From contig JAENWF010000116.1 in assembly GCA_016650215.1 (NCBI GenBank), forward strand, positions 1 through 40,940: 40,940 nucleotides of DNA, in the 5' to 3' direction. Position numbers and translations under genes: made by a program. Positions 37,214 through 40,317 of this stretch are shown here, one piece after another. This DNA comes from Thermoanaerobaculia bacterium (lineage in GTDB: Bacteria > Acidobacteriota > Thermoanaerobaculia > Gp7-AA8). Within the stretch, counting starts at the first letter, position 1, and every line of letters starts with the position of its first letter. The notes beneath the pieces were generated by a model. The model saw only the letters and a list, made by a program, of their open reading frames with translations, was not told the DNA's origin and searched no databases.

Positions 37214-37290
37214 GCGCCCATAGCTCAGCTGGATAGAGCGACAGCCTCCGGAGCTGTAGGTCGTAGGTTCGAATCCTACTGGGCGCACCA
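37214..37290 (+). tRNA. tRNA-Arg (anticodon CCG)
   Basis: A complete cloverleaf is visible. The acceptor GCGCCCA (37214-37220) pairs with TGGGCGC (37280-37286). The D stem is GCTC/GAGC. The anticodon stem ACAGC/GCTGT encloses CTCCGGA, giving anticodon CCG. The T stem is GTAGG/CCTAC with TTCGAAT. Discriminator A and an encoded CCA end (37288-37290) follow. Confidence 0.96.
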
Positions 37291-38288: not shown

Positions 38289-38410
38289 GGAACCCTGAGC
38301 GAAGCGAAGGGTCAATGGTGGCACCGGCAGGTTTGGCCACGGCACCATTTTCTGGCAAGCTGGCCCCGGTGTCACCGTTGATCCTTCGCCGTCTTCGCGG
38401 CTCAGGATGA
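38289..38410. repeat. Long inverted-repeat element with mixed arms (CCTGAG family, copy 6)
   Basis: The left arm is of the GAAGCGAAGG subtype (CCCTGAGCGAAGCGAAGGGT) and the right arm of the CCGCGAAGACGGC subtype. The core GGTGGCACCGG pairs with CCGGTGTCACC. It fills most of the 203-bp prs-rplY gap, in which no gene is seen. Confidence 0.86.
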
Positions 38411-38479
38411 CCGGGGATAGGAATAATGTAGTGTTCTGTTCGTTTTCCCTGCTTCGCGGTATCTCACAAAGGAGTCACC

Positions 38480-39145
38480 ATGGCTGAAGTTACGTTGGAA
38501 GTGTCGCGCCGCGAGGGCGTGGGTAAGGGAGTGGCGAAGAAGTTGCGCGCGGCAGGCAAGGTGCCCGCGGTCGTCTACGGCGGCCATCGGGAGCCGGTGG
38601 CGATCGAAGTCGATCGCAAGTCGGTCTCCGAGCTGATTCAGAAGAGCGAACACGGCCGGCGCTCCATCTTCCTTCTCAAAATGACCGGAACCGACCAGCA
38701 GCGTCACGCGATGATCAAGGATCTGGTGATCGATCCGATCAGCCGCAAGATGATGCACATCGATTTCGTCCGCGTCGTCATGGACGAGGTGGTCCGCGTG
38801 GCCATTCCGATCCACGTCGTCGGTACTGCGATCGGCGTGAAAGAGGGCGGCCTGCTCGACTGGCAGGTGCGCGAGCTTCATGTCGAGTGTCTTCCGGGTG
38901 CCATTCCCGACAACATCGACGTCGACGTCAGCGCGCTCGACTCGCACGACTATCTTCGCATCTCCGACCTCAAGCTTCCCGGGGGCATCAAGGTTCTCGA
39001 TGACATGGATCGGGTTGTCGTCGGCGTGACGCAGGCGAAGCTCGAGCCCGTTGTGGAAGAAGCGGTTGTCGCGGACGCTGTACCTGTTGCCGAGCCCGAG
39101 GTCATCAAGAAGGGCAAGACAGACGACGAGAAAGAGAAGAAGTAG
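38480..39145 (+). CDS. rplY: 50S ribosomal protein L25/general stress protein Ctc
   Basis: The 221-residue protein is the long (TL5/Ctc) form of L25, which binds 5S rRNA. The N-terminal L25 domain (about 1-90) starts EVTLEVSRREGVGKGVAKKLRAAGKVPAVVYGG. A C-terminal beta domain (about 95-185) contains PIHVVGTAIGVKEGGLLDWQVRELHVECLPGAIPDNIDVDVS. The tail is acidic and lysine-rich. AAGGAG is 6 nt upstream of the ATG. A strong terminator follows at 39169. Confidence 0.95.
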   Translation: MAEVTLEVSRREGVGKGVAKKLRAAGKVPAVVYGGHREPVAIEVDRKSVSELIQKSEHGRRSIFLLKMTGTDQQRHAMIKDLVIDPISRKMMHIDFVRVVMDEVVRVAIPIHVVGTAIGVKEGGLLDWQVRELHVECLPGAIPDNIDVDVSALDSHDYLRISDLKLPGGIKVLDDMDRVVVGVTQAKLEPVVEEAVVADAVPVAEPEVIKKGKTDDEKEKK

Positions 39146-39168
39146 CGTTCCATTATTCGGATCCTCGA

Positions 39169-39194
39169 AAGCCCCGCATCCGCGGGGCTTTTTT
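39169..39194 (+). terminator. Rho-independent terminator after rplY
   Basis: AAGCCCCGC-ATCC-GCGGGGCTT is a 9-bp hairpin followed by a T-run. It separates rplY from the redox operon at 39215. Confidence 0.93.
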
Positions 39195-39202
39195 CGTTTG
39201 AC

Positions 39203-39208
39203 TAGAAT
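39203..39208 (+). promoter_or_regulatory. -10 box of the AhpD-like selenoprotein gene, leaderless type
   Basis: TAGAAT lies 6 nt before the ATG at 39215 and just after the rplY terminator. No Shine-Dalgarno is present. Confidence 0.5.
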
Positions 39209-39214
39209 GTCGGC

Positions 39215-39754
39215 ATGAGCAGACTCACGAAGCTGACCAGGGATCAGGTCGCGGGAGAGACTCGCGACCTGTACACGCGGGTTGGAGAGCAACGCGGTAA
39301 CGTGCCGAACATGTTTCGCGTATTCGCGCACCGGCCCGAGATTCTGAAGACGATGGTCGCGCACATGAACGCGATCACGAACAGCGGCACCGTCCCGGTG
39401 CGGACGAAGGAGCTGGTCGCGACTCTCGTCTCGCGGCTGAATGCGTGCGAGTATTGAGGACGTTCTCACACCGCGCAGGCTGCGCGGCACGGGGCCACCG
39501 AAGAGCAGCTCAGAAAGCTGATGGAGTTCGAGAGCGGCCCGTTCGACGAGAAGGAAAAAGCTGCGCTCGCATACGCACGACAGCTGACACTCGACGCGCA
39601 CGCGGTCGATGAAGCGATGTTCGCGCGGTTGCGCTCGCATTACGATGAGGGAGAAATAGTCGAGATCTCGGCGATGGCCGGCCTCTTCAACTACTTCAAT
39701 CGCGTCAACGACGCACTGCAGATGGAGCCGACGAAACCAGGAGAGGGACTCTGA
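39215..39754 (+). CDS. AhpD-like (carboxymuconolactone decarboxylase family) selenoprotein, Sec at codon 81
   Basis: The frame runs 180 codons with one internal TGA at 39455-39457. If that codon is read as selenocysteine, the product is a normal 179-residue AhpD-like alkylhydroperoxidase-family protein. The active site reads C78-E-Y-U81-G-R-S-H85. E66 lies 12 residues before C78 and H85 lies 4 after U81, so the E-x11-C-x2-C-x3-H pattern of AhpD is complete except that Sec replaces the second cysteine, the peroxidatic one in mycobacterial AhpD. Both halves are typical: RTKELVATLVSRLNA before the site, and HTAQAARHGATEEQL with FDEKEKAALAYARQLT after it. A SECIS-like hairpin follows at 39471-39487. 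A nonsense mutation is the alternative. The stop overlaps the tlpA-like start (TGATG). Confidence 0.87.
39471..39487 (+). promoter_or_regulatory. Putative bacterial SECIS element
   Basis: CCGCGCA-GGC-TGCGCGG is a perfect 7-bp stem with a 3-nt loop starting with G. The loop begins 20 nt after the in-frame TGA. Published bacterial SECIS criteria, as I recall them, ask for a small apical loop with a G in its first two positions about 16-37 nt after UGA; this hairpin fits. GC-rich DNA makes chance hairpins common, so the site counts as supporting evidence only. Confidence 0.68.
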
Positions 39755-40317
39755 TGCTGCGTAGCCTTTTGGTCATGCTGCTGGCGCTGGCGATCGCGTG
39801 CGGAGGTAGAGGAGAGAAGCCGGCGCCGGGGACGGCAAAGCCCGTCGCGCAGGCGGCCGCCCCGGCGGAATCCAAGCCAGTGGACGTTGGCAGTCAGATG
39901 CCTGCCTATGCGGCGCAATATCTGGATGGAAAGACGTTCGACATCAAGGACCAGCGCGGCAAAGTGGTGTTCCTGAATCTGTGGGCGACATGGTGTGGCC
40001 CGTGCCGTTTCGAGATCCCTGAGCTTCAGAAGCTGCACGACTCGTACGCGGCGCGCGGCTTTGCGGTCGTGGGCGTGAGTGTGGATGAGGGCGACATCAA
40101 AGTCGTAAGAGATTTCGTCGCCGAACAGAAGATGACTTACCCGGTGGTGCAGGACTCGGCGGGAAGTCTCGCCGTCCTCCTCGACACGAGCATCCTTCCG
40201 ACGTCGCTGATCCTCGACCGGAGTGGCCGAGTGGTCTGGAAGAAACTCGGAATGGTGACGTCGGCCGACGCGGAGATGGTGCGCGTGATCGAGAAAGCGC
40301 TGGCTCAGGAAGGCTGA
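39754..40317 (+). CDS. TlpA/ResA-like thioredoxin-fold lipoprotein
   Basis: The 187-residue lipoprotein has a lipobox ALAIAC (lipidated C16) and a flexible Ala/Pro-rich linker (about 20-45). A TlpA-type thioredoxin domain follows, with W80-C81-G-P-C84 in VVFLNLWATWCGPCRFEIPELQKL, then FAVVGVSVDEG and the cis-proline region ILPTSLILDRSGRVV. It is a membrane-attached thiol-disulfide oxidoreductase, probably in the periplasm. GGAGAGG precedes the ATG, which overlaps the selenoprotein stop by 1 bp. It overlaps the convergent gene at 40305 by 13 bp. Confidence 0.92.
   Translation: MLRSLLVMLLALAIACGGRGEKPAPGTAKPVAQAAAPAESKPVDVGSQMPAYAAQYLDGKTFDIKDQRGKVVFLNLWATWCGPCRFEIPELQKLHDSYAARGFAVVGVSVDEGDIKVVRDFVAEQKMTYPVVQDSAGSLAVLLDTSILPTSLILDRSGRVVWKKLGMVTSADAEMVRVIEKALAQEG

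Follow-up and report, generated by a model that had tools for sequence, protein, structure and literature searches.

The window, meaning the whole stretch of 40,940 nucleotides analysed here (contig JAENWF010000116.1 of assembly GCA_016650215.1, a Thermoanaerobaculia bacterium of the Acidobacteriota), carries towards its end a short run of genes in which an AhpD-like reading frame with an in-frame TGA codon lies between a ribosomal protein gene and a gene for a TlpA-like predicted lipoprotein. The features at the locus are as follows.

38480 to 39145, plus strand: rplY/ctc, encoding ribosomal protein L25/TL5, a conserved upstream neighbour
39167 to 39192, plus strand: hairpin resembling an intrinsic terminator, in the gap from rplY to the selenoprotein gene (consensus scan, suggestive)
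39215 to 39754, plus strand: AhpD-like (TIGR01926, CMD/AhpD fold) selenoprotein gene with a CxxU motif, 179 residues (reading frame, profiles and model)
39446 to 39448, plus strand: TGC codon of Cys78, at the position of the resolving cysteine
39455 to 39457, plus strand: in-frame TGA, the codon of selenocysteine 81 (reading frame and ortholog alignment)
39461 to 39496, plus strand: weaker lower stem of the SECIS element, in which 39461-39465 pairs with 39492-39496, the outer pair being broken in the window
39471 to 39487, plus strand: upper stem-loop of a bacterial SECIS element, CCGCGCA-GGC-UGCGCGG, 7 bp, with the GGC loop beginning 20 nt past the UGA
39754 to 40317, plus strand: TlpA-like (AhpC/TSA, WCGPC) predicted lipoprotein gene, its ATG overlapping the stop codon of the selenoprotein gene

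An ordinary tRNA-Arg (CCG) at 37214-37290 closely precedes a ribose-phosphate pyrophosphokinase gene and rplY. A 412-aa antisense ORF at 38402-39640 was taken as a shadow frame of the GC-rich sequence.

The AhpD-like gene starts with the ATG at 39215, terminates with the TGA at 39752-39754 and contains a single internal TGA among its 179 codons, the translation of which gives the active site C78-E-Y-U81-G-R-S-H85. With this TGA treated as a residue, profile searches return TIGR01926 at 102.1 bits (curated cut-off 81.8; residues 2-173, model positions 1-176 of 178) and PF02627 at 58.6 bits (residues 41-122), both matches spanning the TGA, so that the AhpD-like frame is intact apart from one in-frame TGA, as an earlier note on this DNA had claimed. 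The general-base glutamate and the relay histidine stand at family spacing, again as claimed, with Glu66, Cys78, codon 81 and His85 spaced like Glu118, Cys130, Cys133 and His137 of AhpD. A standard ORF caller ends the product at 39457 after 80 aa; the same note had expected such a caller to report two unrelated fragments.

In a first search of 60 relatives, ten full-length relatives with 53-82% identity were recovered, of which nine contain a single internal TGA and the tenth, G033, has TGC at codon 81. A scan of named genomes returned six TGA-containing orthologs, each from an Acidobacteriota record; five apparently represent the same genomes as in the first search, and one (L059) is new. Including two wider searches, codon 81 is TGA in 36 and Cys in 23 of 59 Acidobacteriota orthologs, proportions that derive from best-scoring loci only and do not represent an unbiased census. 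No residue other than these two occurs in this column, in which the earlier note had proposed to look for Cys or UGA. Many genera and several families retain the TGA at this codon, and pN/pS against same-family orthologs amounts to 0.21-0.33 upstream and 0.17-0.37 downstream of it; owing to this similar purifying selection on either side and to the shared position, the TGA is not a product of chance.

Downstream of the UGA, a spacer of 13 nt precedes the upper stem of the hairpin, hence the start of the loop at 20 nt. The published model for bacterial SECIS elements asks for a loop of 3-9 nt, a stem of 4-16 bp, a G in the first two loop positions, a spacing of 16-37 nt and a minimum free energy of at most -7.5 (PMC13188914), and the element in the window, with its GGC loop, 7 bp, 20 nt and -15.4 kcal/mol (for the stretch of 42 nt that follows the UGA), falls within all of these limits. 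As 49 of the 1343 TGA triplets in the window (3.6%) pass a loose version of such rules, a match in a single sequence is weak evidence, and the stability of the window's own hairpin region is unexceptional for its GC content (z -0.3). The weight of the case for the predicted SECIS element lies in the comparison of ortholog sequences. A stem of 6-8 bp with a GGC loop at a spacing of 20 is present in 36/36 TGA genes and in 0/23 Cys genes, which at the place of the hairpin have stems of 0-1 bp. In the first 11 aligned TGA orthologs, three stem pairs show changes in both partners, 100% of the upper-stem cells are paired, and the whole SECIS structure is 97.7% paired vs 26-58% in slid controls. The excess of folding over synonymous recoding peaks only directly past the UGA, with a mean z of -2.21 vs -0.82 to +0.99 elsewhere. 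The hairpin that the earlier note had proposed to look for thus exists downstream of the UGA, fits the published bacterial rules and covaries. A search of Rfam gave no meaningful match for it, which, bacterial SECIS elements being diverse, does not count as evidence against a SECIS.

These comparisons bear on a competing explanation, a broken gene, with either a genuine nonsense mutation at the TGA or an error of sequencing in the metagenome assembly. The source assembly is fragmented (247 contigs, 88% complete) and a single-base change turns TGC or TGT into TGA; against this, the same TGA recurs across many genera and families, in genomes that were assembled independently, the constraint downstream of it equals that upstream, and a covarying SECIS accompanies the TGA copies only. 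The shared TGA and the hairpin already refute a broken gene, the residual probability of which is negligible. That the UGA is mainly a stop, with a functional product of 80 residues and a minor or regulated insertion of selenocysteine, is very improbable as well. Termination generally competes with selenocysteine insertion at UGA, but constraint on the C-terminal half is just as strong, His85 and most helices of the predicted structure are encoded 3' of the UGA, and the Cys orthologs yield the whole protein with no hairpin.

The genome encodes SelA (469.5 bits), SelB (358.6 bits) and SelD (370.7 bits), all found by profile searches above the curated cut-offs; the earlier note had proposed to look for their genes. 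SelD itself is a predicted selenoprotein with an in-frame TGA in GGUACKL (L015, G000:C232:21992-22930) and represents a second UGA gene; GGUACK is a usual selenocysteine site of this protein. SelD has been listed among selenoproteins (PMC2398784).

The tRNA-Sec, named by the earlier note alongside the three proteins, was not found in the own 88%-complete assembly, including the surroundings of selA, selB and selD, while it is present in most relatives. Matches to RF01852 in the own genome, one of them above the cut-off, were assigned by ARAGORN to tRNA-Ser and other ordinary tRNAs and were rejected as tRNA-Sec. Among the relatives, 16/21 show a match of 66-72 bits, and the nine loci run in ARAGORN were identified as tRNA-SeC with the anticodon TCA. 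The remaining five (G001, G002, G004, G012 and G016) gave no strong match, the best at 41-51 bits lying in the range of tRNA-Ser and tRNA-Leu, which may reflect assembly gaps; G002 and G004 have a UGA-containing AhpD ortholog despite this. In three relatives (G008, G011 and G007; L063, L064 and L072) selC occupies a syntenic site, flanked by an exbD-like gene and one for a prepilin peptidase and separate from selA and selB. Neither flanking gene gave a match in the own assembly, in searches that were both run without a positive control of their own; as neither these genes nor the tRNA-Sec were found, a missing segment is the likeliest explanation for its absence.

In some bacteria UGA is reassigned, and these precedents lend some ground to a reading of the codon not as selenocysteine but, for instance, as tryptophan (code 4) or glycine (code 25). 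This reading is nevertheless scarcely credible, since 4/6 family-annotated window genes checked end in TGA, the alternative at column 81 is always Cys, the selenocysteine machinery is present and a SECIS follows the TGA. Decoding of the UGA as selenocysteine, as the earlier note had proposed, is thus strongly supported by the orthologs, the covarying SECIS and the presence of SelA, SelB and SelD, and most checks suggested in that note turned out in its favour. Against it stands the tRNA-Sec, found neither in the own assembly nor among strong matches in a few relatives, G002 and G004 with their UGA ortholog included.

The predicted structure of the protein shows an AhpD-like all-helical fold (pLDDT 94) and TM-scores of 0.83-0.88 against the AhpD-like structures 2prr and 6k40; structural relatives include the debrominase Bmp8 (6ohi, 6ohj) and uncharacterised peroxidase-related proteins. 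By analogy with AhpD, and with column 81 always Sec or Cys, the attacking (peroxidatic) role most probably falls to Sec81; that position 78 is sometimes Thr in Cys forms also fits residue 81 as the essential one. In the proposed mechanism, SelB and tRNA-Sec, directed by the hairpin at 39471-39487, would decode the UGA at 39455-39457 as selenocysteine. A proton relay of Glu66 and His85 would activate Sec81, which would become oxidised by a hydroperoxide or a similar electrophile, Cys78 would resolve the oxidised Sec81 to a selenenylsulfide and a cellular dithiol would then reduce the latter. The probability that the locus encodes such a full-length 179-residue, TIGR01926-type AhpD-like protein, with hairpin-directed decoding of Sec81 by SelB and tRNA-Sec and most likely with Sec81 as the attacking residue, is estimated at about 96%; gene, UGA codon, SECIS and SelA, SelB and SelD are established computationally, and Sec insertion itself, the peroxidase chemistry, the substrate and the reductant are inferred.

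Compatible with the Sec reading would be a selenoprotein of the same fold that is not a peroxidase, acting instead as a dehalogenase-like or disulfide-exchange enzyme. Bmp8 among the solved relatives, the definition of TIGR01926 by similarity and the overlap of a TlpA-like thiol gene with the stop codon speak for such a role, which is possible, if on the unlikely side, as Deinococcus AhpD and the majority of peroxidase-related structures, at 24-31% identity, are closer matches than Bmp8 (22%), and no pointer to halogenated substrates was seen in the neighbourhood.

In several relatives (L025-L030), a TlpA-like homologue is located directly or further downstream. In G007 and G003 another gene, sialidase-like by eye and with a CDCCQT motif, directly follows, with the TlpA homologue further on. 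A functional link between the selenoprotein and the TlpA-like lipoprotein is a conjecture, and a lipoprotein would normally reside outside the cytoplasm.

Three changes account for the Sec/Cys labels on the tree of the 59 orthologs (bootstrap 3-3; 500 shuffles gave a mean of 18.5). With some long branches and many weak forks, the tree does not settle the direction of change. As judged from these sequences, at least three switches between Sec and Cys have occurred, with the presence or absence of the predicted hairpin matching. Cys78 is found in all Sec forms, while position 78 is Thr in 14/23 Cys forms and Cys in the other 9. The Thr78 forms belong mostly to one clade, plus G033, and thus represent few independent events; an early impression of Thr78 in every Cys ortholog (4/4) failed on the wider set. 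More speculative, and rather doubtful, is a coupling of the Sec/Cys choice at residue 81 to the resolving position 78, whereby Sec and Cys versions would differ in resolving chemistry; the Sec enzyme may also be paired with a TlpA-like lipoprotein in the family of the window organism.

AhpD-like selenoproteins have, as the earlier note said, been reported in bacteria before. CxxU forms were described in 2005 with 27 sequences from the Sargasso Sea (PMC1088965), the GOS survey of 2008 distinguished two AhpD-like types, 1 and 2, assigned to COG2128 and pfam02627 (PMC2398784), and TIGR01926 with CxxU is part of a 2026 selenoprotein catalogue (PMC13188914). The novelty implied by the note was therefore overstated, as the family is already catalogued as a selenoprotein family; the window protein shares NCBIfam family and motif with the catalogue entry and differs by host lineage and sequence only. 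The Sargasso Sea and GOS proteins, likened here without alignment, likewise combine CxxU, a downstream SECIS and Cys homologues, but are environmental marine or aquatic sequences unlike the window. In related AhpD-domain families, the YciW-related NF053654, CFYUT NF041238 and GSU3128 NF041047, NCBI names Sec forms, but the window protein scores far under their cut-offs (90 vs 310, 40 vs 175 and 19.6 vs 110 bits, respectively). AhpD of Mycobacterium tuberculosis (1knc, 1gu9) shares the fold, the CxxC site and the spacing of the Glu and His relay, but has Cys for Sec, 10-13% identity and a weak structural match (E about 0.1). Within a partial coverage of the literature, no paper devoted to an AhpD-like selenoprotein in Acidobacteriota was found, and none that reports experiments with a close Sec homologue. 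Further, more distant AhpD-domain matches with one internal TGA occur in G003, G017, G041, G059 and others, suggesting that Acidobacteriota genomes may encode several AhpD-type selenoproteins each.

The AhpD-like protein of the window is thus a genuine and very strongly supported selenoprotein of an ordinary kind, a new member and not a new kind of system. A gene that ordinary callers truncate is now recovered, and it points to the use of selenocysteine in this Acidobacteriota lineage. With 59 orthologs, at least three switches and a SECIS hairpin that accompanies the UGA, the family provides a natural experiment on the gain and loss of selenocysteine.
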